From positions 2,170,001 to 2,234,000 of the forward strand of contig NZ_CP012069.2 of assembly GCF_001189515.2 (NCBI RefSeq): a stretch of 64,000 nucleotides of DNA, read 5' to 3'. Numbering within the stretch: position 1 is the stretch's first letter; each line of letters opens with the position of its first letter. This document shows positions 42,885 to 56,036 of the stretch, piece by piece. Under the pieces are notes generated by a model. That model did not search any database. It was not told the DNA's origin and saw nothing but the letters and a program-made list of their open reading frames with translations. A program made the position numbers and the translations under genes. This stretch comes from Olsenella sp. oral taxon 807. Lineage in GTDB: Bacteria > Actinomycetota > Coriobacteriia > Coriobacteriales > Atopobiaceae.

Positions 42885-42943
42885 ATCAACCCTACTCATT
42901 ACTTATATAGTAATTAATATTATATTTATGACACGCTTGATTT

Positions 42944-43548
42944 TCAAGTTCGAAGGAGAGGGTGCTCCAAACGTGCGCGCATAAACAAATGGTAGCGGAG
43001 CCTATCCTCGTCAAAACCCGCCCTCCTCGCATCGGCGAGCGCACCGCGCACGAGCGAGGGATCCTCGCCGAGAAGCGCGAAGTCGAGGATCGTCCGCTCG
43101 AACCTCGTGACGGGCATCCCACCCTCGCGAAAGGGGTGCACGAAGCTGTAGTTGTCATAGTGGTAGGCCATGCGGCCGGGAAACCGCCTGGGGGCCACGC
43201 CCGCGAGGAGGTCGTCCTTCTCCAGCTCGCTGCGCGCCCATGCGATGCCCCTCGGCATGCTCGCGGAAGGCGGGAGGAACTGCGCCCCCTCGCCCGCCTT
43301 GCGGATCTCGACGGTCCCGACCTCCCCCGCCCAGTCGCACGCGTCCCTGAACAAGCCTCGATGAGTACGCCACAGGTCACCAAACATACCCGTCGGCCCC
43401 AGGGGGGAGCCCCCAAGAACTCGCTCGTGCGCATCGCGACGAGCTCGCCCTCTGCGTTGCGCAGCTCGTCCCACGTCCCCGCGCCCACGAGGTTTCGCAG
43501 CACGCCCGTCCGCAGGTCGATGTAGGGATCGACGAACCCGTCAGGCAT
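42944..43548 (-). pseudogene. Fic-family gene, frameshifted and joined to an AbiEi-like tail
   Basis: Starts MPDGFVDPYIDLRTGVLRNL; frame changes in a C run at about 43403-43412, after which GMFGDLWRTHRGLFRD, VGTVEIRKAGEGAQFLPPSA and NYSFVHPFREG follow. The Fic motif HPFxxGNGRxxR stops after HPFREG and continues as GMPVTRFERTILDFALL, a stretch resembling the VTxPERTLLD region of AbiEi-type regulators. So the AMP-transfer core is incomplete. Preceded by its presumed antitoxin. Confidence 0.75.
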
Positions 43549-43924
43549 GGGGCCCCTTGCCCTCCCGGTTGGGCTCCCAGCGGCGCTTCGTCCTGCGCAT
43601 AAGCTCCTCTATGGGGATACTCCCCTTCACGTACTCGTCGGCGTCCTTACGAAACTCGGCCGACACGTAGGCGCCCTCCATCTCCCCGGAGTGTATCGAC
43701 TCGTCAATCACACGCTTGCGGTCGCCGCCCATGACGCAGGTGGACGTCTCGGGGAACTGCGCGCGGCAGAAGGGCTCGGCCACGTCGGCCCAGTGCTCGG
43801 CGACGTACATGAGCGTGGGCACGGTCTTGGCGGCCGTCCTAGCGACCTCGAGGTAGTCGCTGAGGATGGCGTCACAGAAGAGCTGGCGGGCCACCCAGTG
43901 GGGCGTGCGGCAGCTCATGTCCAT
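43541..43924 (-). CDS. VbhA-like antitoxin of the Fic gene
   Basis: Up to 126 residues. The C-terminal part RKRVIDESIHSGEMEGAYVS carries the S-x-x-x-E-G inhibition motif (SGEMEG) that blocks ATP binding in Fic proteins. The usual antitoxin is shorter, so translation may start at the ATG at 43732 (MGGDRKRV); the upstream 64 codons look coding but are not recognised and may be a joined remnant. Overlaps the fic start by 8 bp. Confidence 0.65.
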   Translation of the reverse strand: MDMSCRTPHWVARQLFCDAILSDYLEVARTAAKTVPTLMYVAEHWADVAEPFCRAQFPETSTCVMGGDRKRVIDESIHSGEMEGAYVSAEFRKDADEYVKGSIPIEELMRRTKRRWEPNREGKGPHA

Positions 43925-44076: not shown

Positions 44077-44141
44077 ATGGATGCAAAGCCCTTCAATGTA
44101 TAATTATTTCCGCAACTCGATGTATATTCGAGTCAAATTAC

Positions 44142-44638
44142 GAGGCTTCGTGAGTTCATGTAGGTGGATGGTTGCGTCACCGCCCTGGCGGCGTGGACCT
44201 CAGGTCCGAGCGCCCTGGCATCACGGGGGCCATGGGGCCGTCGATGTCGTGGGACCCATGGCCCCGCCCGGTCACGAGAGTGGCCGTGGGGGCAAAGGAG
44301 TGTACACAGATCGGCGAAAACGGCCCCTCGGAGCTGTTTTGGGGCATTTGTGTACACTGTTGCGCCGTTGCGGACAGACGTGGGGACGCAGAAGTGTACA
44401 CAGATCGGCGGAAACGGCCCCTCGGAGCTGTTTTGGGGCATTTGTGTACACTGTTGCGCCGCGAGCTGCGATGCGAGTTGCGTCGGGTGGCACGAGCGCC
44501 CCAACCGCCATGGCGTGCCGGCGGCGCCCCCTCGGTGGCCGCCTCCCTTGGTCGGGAAAACGGGCCCTGCGCGAGCGGTGCCGCCGCTAGCTTGGCGTCT
44601 TCGCCGAGGCAGCAACCCACACTAACCCCCGAAGAGCC
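44142..44638. mobile_element. dispersed non-coding element, copy B (497 bp)
   Basis: Bounded by perfect 8-bp direct repeats CAAATTAC at 44134-44141 and 44639-44646. Ends are imperfect inverted repeats (left GAGGCTTCGTGAGTTCATGT, right CCCCCGAAGAGCC). The interior contains two copies of a 58-bp unit (44300-44357 and 44394-44451) that begins and ends with GTGTACAC and can fold on itself. Copies at 32278 and 51652. Confidence 0.85.
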
Positions 44639-44993
44639 CAAATTACGAGAGGATAAATGTACATAAAGTGCAAGCGGTACCCGCGCCACTTGCTCCCCAA
44701 GGCGCAGATATCGGTGCTTGCGGGGCTCAAGGCTATCGGAAATACTCCTCGACCGCAACTCAGTGTATAACTCATCTGAGTTGCGATTATTCAGGCTCCC
44801 TCGACCGAACCGGCCACAGCCGCTGCTAACTTTCCCTCCTACGGGAAAGCCTTTCGCGGTCCTTGCGGCCGTGCAGTCTACCGGCGAGCCTGCTGAGGGT
44901 AAGGGGAAGCTCCATGGGGGCGGCCCGCACATGGAGGCACATCGGGAGTTTAGGGTGTCAGGCTCGGGGGATTGACGTTGTCGGTGCCTTACG

Positions 44994-45223: not shown

Positions 45224-46966
45224 TCATTGTCCTATCCTCTCTTGGCCTTTCTCGGTTATCTCATAATGGGCCCCTCCGCCACGGCCGACCGGTGCCAGGT
45301 CGCCGTTTTGAACCAGCTTGATCAGTTGCCGGTATGCCTGCTTGCGGTGCAGGTGCAGCAGGTTCTCCACGTCGCGCGTCGCGATGGACCCGCCTTGTTG
45401 TCTTGCCAGCTTCATGATGAGCTCAGGATAGCGCACTTTATCTATGTCGGATTGGCGGACGAAGTCTGCCCCCTTACCAGAGCGGACGTAGACCTTGCTG
45501 CTGAGTATGTAGGATCGCGCTGGTGAGCTGCCGCGTGCTTCGACGAGCCCGGCCTCGACGAGCGCCTCGACAATTGCCCTCGTGACCGCATCGACCATGT
45601 GGAGCTGGGAGGAGAGGCCGGCTACCGTAAGCCTCCTCTGCCTCTTCAGGGCATCCAGCACGAGCAGGGACCTGAGCGATAGCGCCTCGCCGGTTCTCTC
45701 GCGCTCCTCGTTGAGCATGCGCATGAAAAGCTCATCCGGCGCACTTCGCGCTATAAACACGCTCACGCTCGCAGGCGTCGTGCCCGAGTAGTCCGGCAGC
45801 GGCCTGCCGTAGAAGAGCGATCCCTCGAATATGCGGTCGACGCCACGGCCGGTCTTCTCGGCGAGGCCGATACGCTTGAGAGCGCTCATCAGGCACTCGT
45901 TGCGCCCGTGGGGCTCAACAGTAAGCAGGTTTTCCACCGTAACGCCCTCCACGAAACCGCCCGGGTTCGCTATGGTGAGCCCCTCGTCGTCGATGAGCAC
46001 GCGTACGCGGCCGATGACGGCGTAATCGCGGTGGCCGAAGGCGTTGACCAGGGCCTCCCGGAATGCCCTTTGGTCGAACTCTGGCACCGACTGCCTGAAC
46101 AACCCGTCCTCGAACTCGCGCTCCGGGTTCCACGGATCGAGCATCTCGCGCATCTTCTCGATTGTGTAGAGCAGCGGCTGGTCGAAGTCTTGGTTGACGC
46201 GCACCTCCGTGCCGTCCAGCACCTGGAACGTCGCGGCGGACGTCGGTATCGCGCGCCTCATGACCTCGGGCCTGCCTGCGAGCAGGATACCCGTGACAGT
46301 CGGGGTGACTTTGCCGTCTACCAGTGTGGTCATGCGCAGCGCGCTCAGGACCTCGTCGTCGGAAAGCCCGAGCAGTGCTTGATCGCTGCTGCGGTTCTTG
46401 GCGAGTGCCTCGCGCAGGCGCACGATCTCGTCCGGGCTGAGGTCTTCCACGCTGGTATCGGGGACGGGAAAGGCAGAGTAGTCCAGCTGGCCGAGCGTGG
46501 AGAGCCTGGTTATGATCTCGTAGGGGTAGAGGGGTGCGCTTTCGGGCTCTCCGTCCGACTTCAGTCTCCTACGCATGACCTTCCCGCTGCTCGAGGCGAC
46601 GATCGCCTTCGACTTCGGGATCTCGATGAGGGTTACCTGCGCGCCGCCATCGCAGGCCGTCCCGTCGGGCGCGAGGAAGAGGGTCGACACGCGCGCGCCC
46701 ACGGGAGGCACCGTCTTGTTGGCGATGAGCGCGGCAAGCTGCGTGGTATCCCTGTGATCCTTGTGGACCCCGGTTGGCGTACCATCGTCCTCGACTCCGA
46801 GGTATATGTTGCCGCCGTTGGTGTTGCTGAGAGCGACAACCGTGTCCATGAGCTCGGAGTCGGGAAGCCTGCTCGGCTTGAGCTCGCCGTTTTCGTCCCT
46901 CTTGAACTCGCTTTTGAACTCGACCTCTATGGTCTCCCCGAAGGGTATTTCGCGCTGCGCCGCCAT
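45224..46966 (-). CDS. AlbA_2 / HATPase_c_4 protein, cassette 1
   Basis: 580 residues starting MAAQREIPFGETIEVEFKSE. AlbA_2 domain (VVALSNTNGGNIYLGVEDDG), HATPase-like domain (REALVNAFGHRDYAVIGRVR, LTIANPGGFVEGVTVENLL, GLAEKTGRGVDRIFEG) and two C-terminal winged helices (RRLTVAGLSSQLHMVDAVTR; IATRDVENLLHLHRKQAYRQ). ATG 46966 follows AAAGG; the open frame runs on to 47446 over the operator and cannot be coding there. Function unknown; probably binds the palindromes in its own promoter. Confidence 0.85.
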   Translation of the reverse strand: MAAQREIPFGETIEVEFKSEFKRDENGELKPSRLPDSELMDTVVALSNTNGGNIYLGVEDDGTPTGVHKDHRDTTQLAALIANKTVPPVGARVSTLFLAPDGTACDGGAQVTLIEIPKSKAIVASSSGKVMRRRLKSDGEPESAPLYPYEIITRLSTLGQLDYSAFPVPDTSVEDLSPDEIVRLREALAKNRSSDQALLGLSDDEVLSALRMTTLVDGKVTPTVTGILLAGRPEVMRRAIPTSAATFQVLDGTEVRVNQDFDQPLLYTIEKMREMLDPWNPEREFEDGLFRQSVPEFDQRAFREALVNAFGHRDYAVIGRVRVLIDDEGLTIANPGGFVEGVTVENLLTVEPHGRNECLMSALKRIGLAEKTGRGVDRIFEGSLFYGRPLPDYSGTTPASVSVFIARSAPDELFMRMLNEERERTGEALSLRSLLVLDALKRQRRLTVAGLSSQLHMVDAVTRAIVEALVEAGLVEARGSSPARSYILSSKVYVRSGKGADFVRQSDIDKVRYPELIMKLARQQGGSIATRDVENLLHLHRKQAYRQLIKLVQNGDLAPVGRGGGAHYEITEKGQERIGQ

Positions 46967-46992
46967 TGCCTGCCTTTCGAAGCGACGTTCTC

Positions 46993-47059
46993 CATTGGAC
47001 GCATTATAGTCCAATGTTGGGACACTGTCCCAACAAGAATGGGACAGTGTCCCAACATT
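46993..47059 (-). promoter_or_regulatory. promoter and nested perfect palindromes of AlbA_2 cassette 1
   Basis: A perfect 20-bp inverted repeat (AATGTTGGGACACTGTCCCA at 47013-47032 and its complement at 47040-47059, 7-bp centre) overlaps a second one, CATTGGAC/GTCCAATG (46993-47016). On the minus strand TATAAT (47003-47008) has GGGACA 17 bp upstream inside the large palindrome. The large palindrome also matches 45176-45216 beyond the 3' end of the gene. Confidence 0.85.
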
Positions 47060-47212
47060 GCTCCAATTGAACTGTAACGCTCGTTCCGTAGGGTTGCAGC
47101 CCCGCATCCCCTGACTTCGAAAGCACACAGTAATGCCTGACAGAGGGTTCTGCTTGACTTGACGGTAGGACCCTCTCACGCTCACCCATTGAGTTGGCAT
47201 ACGGAGGTGGGG

Positions 47213-47360: not shown

Positions 47361-47601
47361 GGGCGAGACCACCCCAGGACGAGGTTCACTGAGCGCGACG
47401 TAAAGACCTTCAACGCCCAGTGCCCGCAGCTCGACATGAGGCGCACGGCATCGTTTTACGACCGCTTCCCCGGCTCGATGGCTCCGAGGGCTACATGGTT
47501 GGGACGTCGCTGAAGGACGCCGGCAGAAAGGGCTTGTCCGTCACCCGCATCGAGGATGTCGCGATGGTTGGCACGGTCAGTGCGGCGCTGCAGCAGCACT
47601 A
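47355..47601 (+). pseudogene. C-terminal remnant of an ORF6N/PLD-like protein
   Basis: RFTERDVKTFNAQCPQLDMR, ASFYDRF, then after a frame change EGYMVGTSLKDAGRKGLSVT RIED. It matches the C-terminal phospholipase-D-like part also present at 61566-62170. The N-terminal domain is absent here. Confidence 0.65.
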
Positions 47602-47610
47602 GGATAAAAC

Positions 47611-47650
47611 CATCGTTACTAGGTACATTTACTAGGGAACTGGGGAACTC
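47611..47650. repeat. left inverted repeat of AlbA_2 cassette 2
   Basis: CATCGTTACTAGGTACATTT followed by ACTAGGGAACTGGGGAACTC. It matches the reverse complement of 49231-49270 at 36 of 40 positions. Confidence 0.85.
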
Positions 47651-47687
47651 CCATGCTTCCCCAGTCCCCAGTAGGATAGATCCGCTT

Positions 47688-49187
47688 TCAGCCGAGCCGA
47701 TAGCGCCGCTTGGGACTGTTCTTGGTTCCAATAGGCTCGAGGGTCCCGTCCTCCACAAGCCTCGAGAGGTAACGGCGAACGGTCTTCATGGTCATCCCCA
47801 CCGCTTTCGTCACCTCGGACGAGCTCGCGCTCTCGTGCTCTGCGAAGTAGGAGAGTATGGCTTCCTCGACGTTGGCCCTCGAGTAACTGCGCCCCTCCTC
47901 TTCGGTCATCCTCCGGTGCCGGAAGAGAATGTCGAACTCGTCCAGGGTGCTGCGGACTATGGGCTTGCCCATGAGCGCCTTCTCGAGGGACATTTTTATG
48001 GTGGGGTAGCCCGATCCGCGGTTCTCTACCACGCGGCCGACGCTTCCGTCGTAGTCGACGTACGGGACGTCCTCCAGGATCCGCGCCAGGTACTGGTTTC
48101 GCGAAGCCGTGCCGCCCTTGGTGCCGAGGCTCTCCACCGTGAGGGATCCGAACAGGCCGCCGGGGTTCGAGACCTCCAACCGGTCCGGGTACAGGTCCAC
48201 CATCACGGGCGTGCCGTGGCCATCGGGCGAGTAGTCGCGGTGCATGAGGGCGTTCGCGACGGCCTCGCGCACTGCGGGGAGCGGGTAGTCGGGCACGTCC
48301 TCGCGCAGTGCTCCCTTCACTATCGCGCCGTGCCGCATGTTCCGCGAGACCGCCCTCACGGTCTCGACGACCATGGTGGGAATCGGCCCGTCGGCGTTGG
48401 CTGCGTCCGCGAAACGCCTGCCAGCGCCGTCGACCTCACCCTTACGCGGCGTCGGGTAGGAGGTGAAGACCACATCCAATCTGGGGAAGAACTTCTGCGG
48501 GTACTTCCCCAGGGCGAGCATCCCGGCAAGCGTCGGCCTCGCGACGCCCGCCGCGTCCACCGCCACGACGCGCCGGTTGGCCATGAGCTCCTCGTCCGAG
48601 ACCGCGCCCGAACGGTCAAGCGTCGTGGCGCGCACGTGCGAGAGCCAGCCCTCGAGCAGGACCGGATCGAGGTCGCCGACGGTGGCGTCTGGTATGGTCA
48701 CCGCATCGTTTCTGGCCGAGCGGTGCTGGTTCTCAATGAAGCGGTCTATCTCGTAGAGCGACATCTTATGATCGCCGTCGCCGGTCCTCACATATGAGCC
48801 GTCGCGCTGGCCTCGCTTCTTGACGTAGCAGGGCTTCTCGCGGACCGGCGCCTCTGCCACGTTGCCCACGACCACGGGTCTGCCGTCGAGCATAAGCACG
48901 AGTATGTCCACGGCCTGCGGCGGCTCCACGAGCTCGCGGGCGGCCTGGGCGAGCTTGGCCTGCAGCGTCTTTGTGTCGATGTCGCCGGCGGGCTTGAATC
49001 CGTTCTTCTCGAACACCCCCAGCATGACAGTTCCGCCGTGCGTGTTCGCGAAGGCGGATATGGTGTTTGGCACGCTCTTGGGAAAGCCGCCCGCCGCAGA
49101 CTTGACCTCGTATTCCGCCAGGTCGGTGCCCGCTGCGCGCATGCGGTCGATTGCGCTTGCGAGATCCCTGTCAGTCGTGATGAACAT
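47688..49187 (-). CDS. AlbA_2 / HATPase_c_4 protein, cassette 2
   Basis: 499 residues starting MFITTDRDLASAIDRMRAAG. AlbA_2 domain (LAEYEVKSAAGGFPKSVPNT, AFANTHGGTVMLGVFEKNG), HATPase-like part (REAVANALMHRDYSPDGHG, LEVSNPGGLFGSLTVESLG, VVENRGSGYPTIKMSLEKA) and a C-terminal winged helix (SSSEVTKAVGMTMKTVRRYL). ATG 49187 has AGGAG five bases upstream; a GTG two codons earlier is possible. It is enclosed by 40-bp inverted repeats. About the same architecture as the genes at 39212 and 45224 but with low identity. Confidence 0.85.
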   Translation of the reverse strand: MFITTDRDLASAIDRMRAAGTDLAEYEVKSAAGGFPKSVPNTISAFANTHGGTVMLGVFEKNGFKPAGDIDTKTLQAKLAQAARELVEPPQAVDILVLMLDGRPVVVGNVAEAPVREKPCYVKKRGQRDGSYVRTGDGDHKMSLYEIDRFIENQHRSARNDAVTIPDATVGDLDPVLLEGWLSHVRATTLDRSGAVSDEELMANRRVVAVDAAGVARPTLAGMLALGKYPQKFFPRLDVVFTSYPTPRKGEVDGAGRRFADAANADGPIPTMVVETVRAVSRNMRHGAIVKGALREDVPDYPLPAVREAVANALMHRDYSPDGHGTPVMVDLYPDRLEVSNPGGLFGSLTVESLGTKGGTASRNQYLARILEDVPYVDYDGSVGRVVENRGSGYPTIKMSLEKALMGKPIVRSTLDEFDILFRHRRMTEEEGRSYSRANVEEAILSYFAEHESASSSEVTKAVGMTMKTVRRYLSRLVEDGTLEPIGTKNSPKRRYRLG

Positions 49188-49207
49188 GGGCACTCCTGGA
49201 ATGTCGG

Positions 49208-49270
49208 ACTAGGGAACTATGGAAACATAAGAGTTCCCTAGTTCCCTAGTAAATATATCTAGTAGCGATG
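49208..49270. promoter_or_regulatory. right inverted repeat and operator of AlbA_2 cassette 2
   Basis: ACTAGGGAACT at 49208-49218 faces two overlapping copies of its complement AGTTCCCTAGT at 49232-49242 and 49240-49250; the same 11-mer stands at 47631-47641 on the other side of the gene. The outer 40 bp (49231-49270) are the partner of 47611-47650. Confidence 0.85.
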
Positions 49271-49307
49271 ATTCTACCTTAGTGTCATAGATGCCCAGAT
49301 CCGCAAC

Positions 49308-49655
49308 ATGATCCACACCGTGCATGATCAGCAGGTCATGCTCGACAGCGACCTGGCAGAGCTGTGCGGCGTGCTGACAGGAAACCTCAACAAGGCCGCG
49401 TCTCGAAACGCCGAGCGCTTCTCGGAGGACTTCCGCTTCAGGGTGTCGAAAGAAGAGCACGAGTCTTTGATGCTCCAAACTGGAATATCAAACGATGGCG
49501 GACGAGGTGGCAGGAGAAAGCCTCCCTACGTCCACACCGAGCAGGGCGCATCCATGCTCTCGGCCGTGCTCAGGAGCGAGGTCGCCGTCAGGGCGAGCGT
49601 GCAGATCATACGCGCCTTCGTCGAGATGCGCCACCTCATAGCTGTGCCCTCGTGA
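49308..49655 (+). pseudogene. ORF6N-domain protein, N-terminal part
   Basis: 115 residues: IHTVHDQQVMLDSDLAELCG, NKAASRNAERFSEDFRFRVS, RRKPPYVHTEQGASMLSAVL and IIRAFVEMRHLIAVPS. This is the phage-type KilA-N/ORF6N domain. It stops at the point where the copy at 61566 reads VEMRRYLASNAQMFERI, so the C-terminal half has been cut off, exactly at the repeat beginning 49653. Confidence 0.75.
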
Positions 49656-49757
49656 AACTTACGGAAACTTAAAGCCCGAATCGTACAATCGCATGACCTG
49701 CGCTTTCGTGTCCCTGTGGCGCTCTGGGGCCTCGGAAATGAAACTTACGGAAACTTA
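49653..49757. repeat. direct repeats at the end of the third AlbA_2 gene
   Basis: TGAAACTTACGGAAACTTA occurs at 49653-49671 and 49739-49757; each copy contains two GAAACTTA units. The first marks the break in the ORF6N gene, the second overlaps the 3' end of the AlbA_2 remnant. Confidence 0.8.
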
Positions 49758-49759
49758 GG

Positions 49760-50462
49760 TTACGCCCAGAGGGGAACGTAGCGCATGTACCTCGGCGCGG
49801 TATCGGGGTCGACCGGCTGTATCAGCCCGCGCTCCAACGTATCCCGAATCACACGGGACGCCTTCACCTTGGCGTCGGCAGAAAGCCCGAACAGCTCTCG
49901 CACGTCGGCATTGGTGAGTGCCTCGGCGATGACGCTCGCGAGGCACGCCTGCATGTAGCAGATCCTGACCCTGTCCTCCTTGCTCGTCAGGTCGAAGGGG
50001 ACCTTCGAGAATATCGTCGCCCTCGTGAACCTGCCCTGCTGCTGCCCCACGCGCGAGGCAGGGAGGCCGCTGGAGCTCGTCGCCGTCACGATCTTGTCGT
50101 AGCCACTGCCGCGCTCCTCGCAGATGCTGCACTTGCGCATAACCCGCCATGGCCTCGTTGCGCGGCTGGGGCACTGTGTCGATGATGCAGGCGACCTCAA
50201 CGAACGGGGCGCCTGCGTTCGAGAACTCGATGCGCCCGTCGAACACCTCCACCATTGGGCTCGCCCCGCACTGGTCGAGCGCCTGGCGGGCCATCATGTT
50301 CGCCGTGAGCTCGCTTACCGCGACCTCGGGGAAGCTGACCGCCTTACGGCGGATGGCGCCGTCGAGCACCTCCTCCTGTGGGATGATTGCCATGGCGAAC
50401 CGCACGACCTCCTCGTGTGATATGGCGTACCCCTTGGCGAAGGTCTGGCTTCTGGGAATCAT
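49760..50462 (-). pseudogene. AlbA_2/HATPase gene 3, lacking its N-terminus and frameshifted
   Basis: Begins in the middle of the family at IPQEEVLDGAIRRKAVSFPE, passes AVSELTANMMARQALDQCGA and IEFSNAGAPFVEV, changes frame near 50140 and ends ICEERGSGYDKIVTATSSSG ... ALTNADVRELFGLSADAKVK to RYMRYVPLWA. The AlbA_2 domain is missing. It abuts the AbiEi-like gene. Confidence 0.75.
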
Positions 50463-51277: not shown

Positions 51278-51651
51278 ATTTCACAATCTAACATATGTAG
51301 TGATAATACACAATTTGGATCAACTCACAGGATACGCAATCCTCATCCCCGCATTCTTTCGGCCGATTCCGAGGGTCTGGACCACCTTAAGCCAACGTAA
51401 GGCCTCTTCCCCCGGCCTGCGAACCCGCTCCGATGAGGGGTCGTGGCCCGCGCCCGATTCGAGGTCGCGGGCCCCGCCTGGACGGTCGACCTCGAGCAGC
51501 CCGCCACGCGCGACGGCGCCGGCCCCGCCAGCCGTATGCGCGTTCGCGGGGTCTCGTCATCCTCCATGGCCCGATGACGTCACCGGGAGGTTCGACATGC
51601 TCAGACACAATACGAATTAGCAATTAGCTTACAATTCCTCAGACGCATTTC
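51278..51651. other. gap without recognisable gene
   Basis: AT-rich next to the AbiEi-like start (its promoter must lie there), then very GC-rich. Nothing else seen. Confidence 0.4.
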
Positions 51652-52045
51652 GCGGCTTCGTAAGTTCGTGTGGGAGGGCAGTTGCGTCACCGCCCTGGCG
51701 GCGTGGGCGTCAGGTCCGAGCGCCCTTGCGTCACGGGGGCCATAGGGTCGTTGATGCCGTGGGACTCGCAGCCCCGCCCGGTCGCGCGAGCGGCCGTGGT
51801 GACGCAGGAGTGTACACAGATCAGCGAAAACGGCCCCTCGGAGCCGTTTCGGGGCATTTGTGTACACTGTTGCGACGCGAGTTGCGTCGGGTGGCACGAG
51901 CGCCCCAGCCGCTATGGTGTGCCGGCAGCGCCCCCTCGGTGGCCCGCCTCTCCCTTGGCCGGGAAAACAGGCTCTGCGCGAGTGGCGCCGCCGCTAGGCT
52001 GGCGTTTTCACCGGGGCGTCAGCCCACACAAACCCCCGAAGAGCC
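51652..52045. mobile_element. dispersed non-coding element, copy C (394 bp)
   Basis: Same ends as copies A and B (left GCGGCTTCGTAAGTTCGTGT, right CCCCCGAAGAGCC). Flanked by CGCATTTC (51644-51651) and CGCATTTT (52046-52053), 7 of 8 bases alike. Contains one 58-bp GTGTACAC-bounded unit. Confidence 0.82.
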
Positions 52046-52142
52046 CGCATTTTGTACTGTTTCGTTTCTCCCGCTCAGGGGCTTTACTCTTCTCTCTGTT
52101 AGAGAGTTGCGGAAAGACGATAGGGATGGAACCACCGCTGGC

Positions 52143-52232
52143 ACCACTGGCATAGCCAGTGGTTTTCTCACCAGAATAAATGAGGGGCACTCCCCGAAGG
52201 AAGCCCCCCTCTAAAACGGTCGAACCGTTTTT
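52143..52232. terminator. two hairpin terminators downstream of the Abi_2 gene
   Basis: ACCACTGGC-ATA-GCCAGTGGT followed by TTT (52143-52166, works on the plus strand), and AAAACGGT-CGA-ACCGTTTTT (52213-52232, symmetric, works on both). They follow the end of the Abi_2 gene (minus strand, stop at 52307). The rest of 52054-52306 holds no gene. Confidence 0.65.
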
Positions 52233-52725: not shown

Positions 52726-53718
52726 CTACCAATCCATGCTCTTGAGCCAGGACAGGAGATCCTGCCTCTCGCTTTCGTCATAAGCCGCGTCGGGCGCGAT
52801 GCGCGCGCCACGCTCCTCGATGGCCTTGCGGCGCATCTCCGGATTTGCCCTGGCGTATATCTCGGTGGTGGTTACCGAGACGTGTCCAAGCAGGTCGCGT
52901 ATGTACACGAGGTTGACGCCGGCTTCCAGCAGGTGCATCGCCCGCGAGTGCCTGAACATGTGCGGGGTTACCTTGGGCGGCACGTTGGCGCCGTCGCTCC
53001 GCGCCGCCTCCGAGTATTTCTCCACCACGTACCTGAGTCCCGATCGGCTCAGCTTGCCCTGCCGACCCGCGATGAGCGGCGCGTCGCCCGAAGCCCCCGA
53101 TTCCCTCACGTGGCGATCGATTATGGCCGACACCTCACGGCCGATGGGGACGACGCGCGACTTGCCTCCCTTGCCGCGCAGCACGACTGCGGAGAAGCCT
53201 GCGGAAAGGTCGCACGCCCGGATGTCTATGAGCTCCTGGGCGCGCGCGGCCGACTCGTAGAGCAGCGAAAGCGCGGCGAGGTGCGCGAGGCCCTCCCGAG
53301 TCGAGGGGTCCGGTGCGGCGAGCACGGCGCGCATGCCCTCGACGCCGATGTAGCCGACAAGCGGCGGGGGGCAGCGCTTCCTCCCCACGGCCAGCGCCGA
53401 CGAGCACGCCTCCATCCACACCGGATCCCGCGCCTGGATGTATCGGAAGAGGGAGTGTACCGCCGCGAGCCGATGGTTGCGCGTGGACACGGCGACGCCG
53501 CGCGAGCGCTCGAGGTGGTCGAGGAACTCCCCGAGCGCGTCCCCACCGAGGTCCTCCACTCCCAGGGCCTCGACAACCTTCCCGGATCGCCCCGACGCGA
53601 AGGAGACGAACTGGACGATGGCGTCACGGTACGACGCGACCGTGTTGGGAGACGCGCCCTTGACGTCGGGCAGGTGGCAGGCGAAGAAGCGGGCCACGTG
53701 CCCCTCGAAGCCGTCCAT
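52726..53718 (-). CDS. tyrosine recombinase, third of the trio
   Basis: 330 residues starting MDGFEGHVARFFACHLPDVK. Core-binding SAM-like domain (SPNTVASYRDAIVQFVSFAS) then the catalytic domain with Arg in LLYESAARAQELIDIRACDL, HMFRHSRAMHLLEAGVN (H-x-x-R) and LLGHVSVTTTEIYARAN with the tyrosine nucleophile. Overlaps the end of the second gene region by a few bases (TGAGATGG). Confidence 0.9.
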   Translation of the reverse strand: MDGFEGHVARFFACHLPDVKGASPNTVASYRDAIVQFVSFASGRSGKVVEALGVEDLGGDALGEFLDHLERSRGVAVSTRNHRLAAVHSLFRYIQARDPVWMEACSSALAVGRKRCPPPLVGYIGVEGMRAVLAAPDPSTREGLAHLAALSLLYESAARAQELIDIRACDLSAGFSAVVLRGKGGKSRVVPIGREVSAIIDRHVRESGASGDAPLIAGRQGKLSRSGLRYVVEKYSEAARSDGANVPPKVTPHMFRHSRAMHLLEAGVNLVYIRDLLGHVSVTTTEIYARANPEMRRKAIEERGARIAPDAAYDESERQDLLSWLKSMDW

Positions 53719-53719
53719 C

Positions 53720-54642
53720 TCACACCCCTCCCAGGCCGGGGGCCACGTGCGGCGCGTACAGCTCCATGCGCTCGAGGACGCCCGCGCGTCCCTCGTCCGT
53801 GAGGCGGAGGTACCATTCCGTCTCCTTGGGCCCGCAGTGGCCCATGTACCGGGACAGGACCGGCAGGGCCGCGCGCACGTCGACCCCCGCGGCGTCCATC
53901 CGCGCGAGCGCCCCGACCGCGAACGTGTGCCGCCAGTCATGCAGGCGCGGATAGGCCCCGTCCGCCCTGCGCACGCCTGCGGAATCCAGGAGGGTCCTGT
54001 GCCATGTGCCGACGAGCTGGTTCTGCAGCGGGCCGCCCTCCCGCAGAAGACGAGCCCGCCCCCGCCGCCGACGCGGAGTCCCCGGTAGCGTTCGAGCACC
54101 TCCGCCATCGATGCCGACATGACGACGAGCCGGGGCTTCCCTCCCTTGCCGAGAACGCTGAGCCGCCTCCCGTCGACGTCGTCCCACCGCAGGCCGGCCG
54201 CCTCAGAGAACCTGAGGCCGGTCGAGTAGAGCAGGCGCACGAACGCCGGCATGATGAGGCTCGGCTCGTAGGGGCTGCGCCTCTGGGCGATGCCGGCATC
54301 GGCCGCCGAGAACACGGCGGAGGCCTCCTCGTCCGTGTAGATATGGGGCACGAAGTCGCTCTCGAGGCGGACGTCCGCCCTGAAGGAGCCGGCCTCGATG
54401 TCCCTCCTCGCGCAGAACCCCGCGAACACGTTCCACAGCCCGACCCTGTTGGCGCGCGTCCGGCACGCCTCGCCGTCCCTGGGGGCGGCCCACTCCGCGA
54501 AGGCTGCCTCGTCCATGTCCCGCTCGCCCAGGAACGAGCACAGGCGCTCGCAGGCGCACACGTGGCTTCGCCCGTACGCGTAGCCGCACGCCCTCCTCTC
54601 GGCGATGAAGGCGCGCAGGGCGTCCGCCCAACGGCCCCTCAT
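53720..54642 (-). pseudogene. tyrosine recombinase, second of the trio, frameshifted
   Basis: Starts MRGRWADALRAFIAERRACG; Arg in LLYSTGLRFSEAAGLRWDDV. In the G/C run at about 54035-54060 the frame changes, after which PLQNQLVGTWHRTLLDSAGV, LHDWRHTFAVGALARM and YMGHCGPKETEWYLRLT follow with His, Arg and Tyr intact. About 307 residues if corrected. May be a real mutation, a sequencing error or, less likely, programmed frameshifting. Confidence 0.8.
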
Positions 54643-54646
54643 GCGC

Positions 54647-55873
54647 TCACCACCCGCGGACATGGGGCACCTCCGGCGGGATGGCGGCAAGGCCCTCCTC
54701 GTCGACCGACAGGTACGCCTCGGTGGCCGACGTCGAGGCGTGGCCGAGCACCGAGGATATCGTCGGCAGCGGGACACCGGCGGCGAGCAGGCCAGACGCG
54801 GCGGAATGGCGCAGGGCATGGCCGCCGTGCCTGCGCCCGGAGCGGTCGACGCCGGCCCGGTCGATGGCGCGCGTCACCATCCGATGGAACGAGGAGCCGC
54901 TCTTGTAGGGCGTGTGCGGTGCGTGCGTCGTCAGGATGACGTGCGGGTCGTTCGACCTCGGGCGGGCGTTCCCCGCGTAATCGAGGAGCGGGAACCTCAC
55001 CCCGTCGACGATGGGCAGTGATAGCCGAAGGCCCGTCTTCGCCTGGACGATCGCGATGCGGCCCGAGCACCAGTCGACGTCGGCGAACCTCAGTGCGGCG
55101 ACGTCCCCGCATCGCATGCCGTAGTGCGCGAACAGGCTCAGGACGAGCATGTCGCGCTTGCCGGCGGGCGTCGCCACGTCGACGGAGCCGAGGATCAGCG
55201 CGACCTCCTCGTCGGTGTACCGCGACGGTAGCGGCGAATAGGCCCTGGCCCTTACGACGGGAAAGGCGTCCCGGCCGCCGAACGCGATGAGCCCCTCCTC
55301 GCCCATCCAGTCCAGCGCCTTACGCAGCGAGTAGCCGTCTCGTTTGTTCTCGTGGGGCGATCTCCCCGGCTCTCCCATGTATGCGTGCACGTCGGCCACG
55401 GTCAGGTCCCCGATCTTGCGTACCCCGCGCGAGTCGAGGAACAGCAGGAAGCGGCGAACCCGCCAGAGCCTCAGCGCCTTGGTGCTCCCCGCGAGCCCGC
55501 TAGACCCCACCAGGGCCGCGTATCCCGCGTAGGCGCCCGCGAACTGCTCGGGCGGGGGCTCGGGGCCGGGGTGCCGCTGATGGCTCTTGAGGTAGGTCCC
55601 CGTCTCCTCGAGCTCGAGCAACGTGAGCAGCGGCTTGCGGATCACGCACTGCGCCGGAGTCACGTCGCGCTCGTCGATCGGGAGGTCGAACTGGGCGAGG
55701 AGGAAGCGCGCGGCCTCCTCCCTGTTGACCGAGCGTACCCCTTCTCGCTCGCACCACTTGGCGAAATTGCCGAGCACCCAGCGCGCGTTCCTCACCATCT
55801 CGTCGCTGTAACCGTCTGACCTCAACCGATCGACGAGGGCGTCGGCAGCGCCCCCTAACATCTTGATGTCCAT
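54647..55873 (-). CDS. tyrosine recombinase, first of the trio
   Basis: 408 residues starting MDIKMLGGAADALVDRLRSD with GGAG before the ATG. Catalytic residues: Arg in LFAHYGMRCGDVAALRF, HALRHSAASGLLAAGV, and Tyr in LGHASTSATEAYLSVD. Full length for RitA. Ends 4 bp before the second recombinase gene. Confidence 0.9.
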   Translation of the reverse strand: MDIKMLGGAADALVDRLRSDGYSDEMVRNARWVLGNFAKWCEREGVRSVNREEAARFLLAQFDLPIDERDVTPAQCVIRKPLLTLLELEETGTYLKSHQRHPGPEPPPEQFAGAYAGYAALVGSSGLAGSTKALRLWRVRRFLLFLDSRGVRKIGDLTVADVHAYMGEPGRSPHENKRDGYSLRKALDWMGEEGLIAFGGRDAFPVVRARAYSPLPSRYTDEEVALILGSVDVATPAGKRDMLVLSLFAHYGMRCGDVAALRFADVDWCSGRIAIVQAKTGLRLSLPIVDGVRFPLLDYAGNARPRSNDPHVILTTHAPHTPYKSGSSFHRMVTRAIDRAGVDRSGRRHGGHALRHSAASGLLAAGVPLPTISSVLGHASTSATEAYLSVDEEGLAAIPPEVPHVRGW

Positions 55874-56036
55874 GCCCTTGCTCCTTTCCACGAGTCGGAC
55901 ACCGTGGGAAGGAGCGTAACTGATTATGTGCGGAATACTAGGTTGTGCACGCCTCTGAACCGGTTAGTCGCGACAGACTGCTCATAACCGAGAGCCGCCG
56001 ATAACACAACTTATGTGCATTTGCACATAAGTTGTG

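Follow-up and report, generated by a model that had tools for sequence, protein, structure and literature searches.

The window considered here, a stretch of 64,000 nucleotides from Olsenella sp. oral taxon 807 (NZ_CP012069.2, positions 2,170,001 to 2,234,000), contains on its minus strand one intact open reading frame that starts either at an ATG (47688-49187) or at an alternative GTG at 49193, and this gene stands between two similar blocks of DNA, its left and right arms, with remnants of ORF6N-type genes at the outer edges:

47370-47605, plus strand: C-terminal part of an ORF6N-type gene remnant at the left edge, matching DNA downstream of the ORF6N part, for example in G164, G028 and G032
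47597-47669, plus strand: left arm, the block 3' of the gene; 59/73 positions agree with the right arm (49212-49284) read as its reverse complement; unique in the genome
47631-47641, plus strand: 11-mer ACTAGGGAACT, one of four genome-wide
47688-49187, minus strand: AlbA_2/HATPase_c_4/winged-helix gene, the sole gene of the unit (ORF; Pfam; structure model with mean pLDDT 87 and pTM 0.62; best PDB match 3lmm)
47736-47861, minus strand: C-terminal winged helix, residues 445-486 (PF09339, E 4.4e-5; PF13412, E 4.7e-5)
47922-48215, minus strand: HATPase_c_4 domain, residues 327-424 (PF13749, E 3e-19)
48762-49115, minus strand: AlbA_2 (Schlafen-fold) domain, residues 27-144 of the GTG form (PF04326, E 3.4e-12)
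49208-49218, plus strand: 11-mer ACTAGGGAACT (genome-wide exact search)
49212-49284, minus strand: right arm, the block 5' of the gene, overlapping the likely promoter (arm comparison and DNA search; promoter by eye)
49232-49242, minus strand: 11-mer ACTAGGGAACT (genome-wide exact search)
49240-49250, minus strand: 11-mer ACTAGGGAACT, overlapping the copy at 49232 (genome-wide exact search)
49285-49655, plus strand: remnant of the N-terminal part of an ORF6N gene, truncated where the unit has its right edge (PF10543, E 4e-24)

The window protein scores 47, 69 and 23.6 bits against PF04326, PF13749 and PF09339, for which the family cut-offs are 25.3, 26 and 22, and after 3lmm its structure model matched 2kyy, Schlafen N-domains, GHKL-type kinases and MarR-type winged helices. 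Searches with Pfam, NCBIfam and PHROGs detected no recombinase or transposase domain in it. PADLOC models gave only modest matches, to long pAgo and Aga models with similar domains (best E 4.7e-12 for the window protein), and a defence-system reading was dropped on that ground. Proteins of this kind had been described as multi-copy, and 25 matches to the window protein were found within its own genome. The trlG gene of Photorhabdus restricts growth at 36 °C (PMC7554251), and TrlG and 3lmm (C. diphtheriae) share the AlbA_2 plus HATPase_c_4 architecture and the protein family of the window gene; unlike the latter, trlG sits within a three-gene operon, and the sections consulted describe no flanking repeats for it (PMC7554251). 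A search of the open-licence literature likewise found no description of flanking repeats in the AlbA_2/HATPase family.

The original prediction held that inverted repeats of 40 bp enclose the gene, and the match of 47611-47650 to the reverse complement of 49231-49270 at 36 of 40 positions was reproduced by realignment. The arms are in fact longer, 73 nt each, and align without gaps. Their local inverted match scores 76, compared with a 99th percentile of 30 for 1630 other flank-sized pairs taken at the same spacing from the same window, among which one region only, at 349, exceeds the window gene. When 100 related genomes and the genome itself were searched with a 91-bp right-arm query, only the two arms and a palindromic self-match were returned (second arm, E 2.8e-13). 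The 11-mer ACTAGGGAACT occurs exactly four times in the 3.21-Mb genome, always at the window gene, while a reversed-pattern control gave no occurrence. Three of the four exact copies lie in or adjoin the right arm, as was expected from the claim that the 11-mer stands on both sides of the gene with extra copies at the right repeat; with two mismatches allowed its frequency in the window is not above chance, so that the weight is placed on the exact copies. The right repeat had also been said to contain the gene's promoter region, and a promoter-like TTTACT-18-TATGTT (TTTACT at 49253-49248, TATGTT at 49229-49224) can indeed be recognised there by eye.

Several further features lie nearby. A second AlbA_2/HATPase gene (45224-46972, minus strand) has just upstream of it, at 47012-47060, palindromes made of TTGGGACACTGTCCCAA and a one-mismatch copy that are found nowhere else in the window, and no matching block was found downstream of it. 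On the other side, a decayed HATPase gene (49755-50462, minus strand) ends beside two identical 19-bp repeats TGAAACTTACGGAAACTTA (49653-49671 and 49739-49757, 86 bp apart and nowhere else in the window), and these may possibly be the remains of another such unit. At 52726-55891 (minus strand), 3.4 kb from the cassette, two overlapping long frames match Phage_integrase, one of them over two such stretches, and they are perhaps a recombinase trio like those of RIT elements. A stretch repeated at about 44133-44660 and at 51601-52155 gives translations that share ...VYTNAPK.LRGAVFADLCTLL..., and other paralogs of the genome, for example L101 and L102, seem to have related stretches nearby. Finally, a VbhA-type antitoxin gene (PF18495) at 42892-43924 (minus strand) is followed by frames that resemble a frameshifted Fic gene, where by eye an HPFREG motif is present and the frame is then lost.

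Since the exact window repeat found no match in a DNA search among 100 related genomes, its conservation was sought as an architecture instead of a sequence. Homologs were collected from 140 genomes of the family and from a scan of genome contigs, and at 154 non-redundant loci the upstream flank of each gene (250 bp) was aligned with its own downstream flank of equal length and, for control, with the downstream flanks of all the other genes. Using a score of at least 34, a cut-off picked after the data had been seen but around which the excess of own pairs is similar from 30 to 60, the own flanks matched each other at 28 of the 154 loci, against 0.37 expected from the mismatched pairs. The earlier proposal to search the repeat and the protein in related genomes was thus answered by the layout, and not by the repeat itself. 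One of the 28 loci, L062, matches through DNA 143-230 bp upstream that resembles duplicated flanking DNA, and its two-sidedness probably has that origin. A scan of viral contigs yielded 19 mostly distant homologs, none above the threshold.

The blocks are mostly 40-154 bp long, of iteron or palindrome type, and differ between genes, with units of about 11 bp such as ACTTATTCAC, ACTTAACACTTAAC, CACTCAGTTTCTCACTCAG and CTTCCCACTAA; the nearest relatives of the window gene carry ACTTAGGAAGT-like units. Cross-matching blocks were found in 7/7 pairs of proteins more than 75% identical, in 4% of pairs at 35-50% identity and in none below 35%. By this measure the block unit appears common to close proteins and different between distant ones, and, considering also that the protein ends in a winged helix, we infer that it would bind the blocks. 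Inverted flanking repeats, as originally predicted, are real in the window and turned out to be the minority form: the blocks are direct at 23 of the 28 two-sided loci and inverted at five (the window, L084, L102, L179 and L058). L102, a distant paralog in the same genome near 2.61 Mb, has inverted blocks of its own (TCTCATCTCATTTTCC..., 86%). A classical cut-and-paste transposon with terminal inverted repeats would account for the finding that the outer parts of the window arms are also matched in inverted orientation, but it leaves the prevalence of direct blocks, the lack of a transposase domain and the failure to recognise a short target duplication at the edges read, and we consider it very improbable.

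On a quickly built tree of 110 proteins, two-sidedness required 14 changes versus 24 when shuffled, and all 27 two-sided rows fell within one clade of 70, with none among the 40 rows outside it. L102, which was left out of this tree, is two-sided and inverted, so the trait is not strictly limited to the 70-row clade. Neighbours in the tree such as Bifidobacterium, Arcanobacterium and Olsenella-type proteins suggest that transfer between families may have occurred.

Cassettes found in different contexts were then informative as to their borders. Homology stops at the outer block edges in three pairs: L139/L141, from Pseudoglutamicibacter albus and Gleimia europaea, which belong to different families (84% DNA identity over 1651 bp), L084/L091 (87% from block to block) and L096/L097 (80%). 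At several loci without two-sided blocks, whole neighbourhoods are shared, as expected under vertical descent, L069_12/L070 being an exception. According to comparisons with the loci of relatives, cassettes between housekeeping genes hold no second gene.

Across related genomes, a given site can be found in three states, namely without any block, as block-gene-block, or with one block. Examples of block-gene-block are Arcanobacterium bovis (G182), Pseudoglutamicibacter G181, G285 and G286, and G115. Gene and block are both absent in G287 compared to L139 at the aspartokinase site and in G186 compared to L188 at purF-purM, and argH and purB lie 44-120 bp apart in several genomes of the family that were compared with L068 by coordinates only. 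The cleanest single-block case is found in Arcanobacterium, where G289 aligns with L128 through the left flank, one 88-bp block and the right flank over 704/704 contiguous bp at 93%, with flanks that are collinear over 1.3 and 1.7 kb; the block is identical to the 3' block of L128 at 87/88 positions and to its 5' block at 83/88. G125 carries one block of about 80 bp compared to L085, with flanks at 91-95%, and G121 carries one of 56 bp compared to L061 (55/56 identical to the 5' block), where similar flank extends over only about 100 bp per side. Two other candidates were rejected: in the purF-purM gap of G185 (L249), where a relative has the cassette, the supposed leftover block is an imperfect hairpin of about 135 bp that is unrelated to it, and conservation at the L127 site in Bifidobacterium is limited to the right flank.

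At the level of sequence, these comparisons show that the gene and both blocks appear as a unit common to genomes in different contexts, present in some and absent in their relatives, and that a recurrent alternative state is one in which the gene is seemingly gone and a single block occupies the site. The sites with and without the cassette that the original prediction had asked to compare therefore do exist in relatives. Its opposite, a gene always at the same locus with repeats that are not conserved, does not hold, since the loci differ and the two-sided layout is kept while its sequence is gene-specific.

A single block may have been left behind as a scar, or it may have been there beforehand as a target; both readings fit. 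In G289 the block is better conserved than the adjoining non-coding flank, which would suit a scar left by a recent excision. The two blocks of L085 are about 98% alike and its flanks differ by 5-9% from those of the single-block relative, which would also be consistent with a block that was already present and was duplicated not long ago. If the single block were the ancestral target, the gene would arrive as a one-block circle in a Campbell-type event, for instance as an integrated iteron mini-replicon, to give block-gene-block. The L085 blocks and the resemblance between iteron-like units beside a winged-helix gene and iteron replicons speak for this scenario, which we nevertheless regard as rather improbable: some sites lack both gene and block, one block contains the promoter region of the gene itself, the G289 block suits a recent scar, and among plasmid records there is no small free plasmid bearing the gene (homologs in plasmid and phage records are all below 60% identity).

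Some members lie beside tRNA genes. Homologs at L059, L060, L065, L069 and L089 are next to genes for tRNA-Met or tRNA-Arg, and at L059 and L065 duplicated tRNA 3' parts enclose the gene, which is the only one recognised between them, an arrangement also suggested for L060 and L089. L059 and L065 are possibly minimal integrase-less islands, and members between duplicated tRNA ends could be mobilised in trans by integrases. With no tRNA in the 9 kb around its gene, the window copy falls outside this class of islands. Duplicated tRNA ends, the mark of integrase islands, lend weight to the idea that the gene and its blocks are only carried along passively by islands, phages or homologous recombination, the blocks being a two-sided operator that an autoregulator binds on both sides to loop the DNA; the overlap of one block with the promoter region and the winged helix of the protein agree with such an operator. 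It leaves unexplained why homology stops at the blocks and why some sites have exactly one, and units between housekeeping genes bear no other gene. We therefore judge this account unlikely as a whole, though deserving more credit than the one-block circle. Looping may possibly be an additional role of the blocks, which by itself leaves the single-block sites unexplained.

None of the known systems whose definitions we tested, transposon, RAYT/REP pair or integron cassette, is fully matched. The inverted termini typical of DNA transposons are, as described, a feature of the window rather than of most two-sided loci. RAYTs are Y1 tyrosine transposases whose REPs are scattered through the genome; the window's unit resembles such pairs in having one gene flanked by palindromes particular to its protein, but the protein has no Y1 transposase (HUH) domain, and the exact 11-mer is confined to its gene, the 91-bp query finding no other place. 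Integron cassettes are also one-gene units with palindromic, recombination-site-like bounds that are usually direct, but their attC is restricted to the 3' side of the gene and depends on IntI, whereas here gene-specific blocks are present on both sides, including the promoter, and each unit is solitary among housekeeping genes. LTR-type elements, which have long terminal direct repeats and leave solo repeats, show the same series of states at one site (none, repeat-gene-repeat, single repeat), but here there is no reverse transcriptase or integrase, and the repeats are short, iteron-like and gene-specific.

Altogether, we favour, with a probability of about 0.55, the reading that the window gene and its blocks are a one-gene mobile DNA unit with gene-specific blocks of ~11-bp iterons and palindromes, one of these blocks lying over the promoter. 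The winged helix would bind the blocks, so that blocks and protein would diverge together; binding would repress the promoter and may also join the two ends. The unit would arrive as block-gene-block, inserted by the AlbA_2/HATPase protein or by something acting in trans, and recombination between direct blocks would remove the gene and leave one block behind. In the window the blocks are inverted, so the gene cannot be lost by recombination between them. The window copy is an atypical member, given that its blocks are inverted and have diverged to 81% and that its right edge lies within the ORF6N remnant, where relatives have roughly 15-20 more codons ahead of the cut point. The predicted one-gene cassette of about 1.66 kb is thus backed by the borders, empty sites and single-block sites of relatives, from whose cassettes the putative mobility of the window copy is argued, and lacks an empty site of its own: a search for one yielded nothing but scattered homologs of the ORF6N gene, which match over most of their length at 66-78%. 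Also counting against a mobile unit are the absence of a known recombinase or transposase domain, the 126 of 154 homologous loci that fall below the two-sided threshold, the inverted window blocks and the short flanks that support G121, while the members between duplicated tRNA ends point to other means of mobilisation than their own.

A bolder version, which we put forward only tentatively, has the AlbA_2/HATPase/winged-helix protein moving the unit by itself, so that such units would form a new class of autonomous elements, the smallest of their kind. The protein would recognise its private iteron blocks at both ends and insert the gene into intergenic DNA with a specificity that diversifies with the protein, such that many mutually blind elements coexist. 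In our judgement, the unit is a new category only if its movement is self-driven or follows a route not yet described, and that status falls if it is passive cargo. AlbA_2/HATPase proteins are common, multi-copy and mostly unexplained. If many of them are one-gene mobile units with private repeats, their abundance and patchy spread would be explained, and each protein would gain a ready candidate binding site; if the protein also moves the unit, DNA mobility would become a new role of the Schlafen-fold and HATPase domains.
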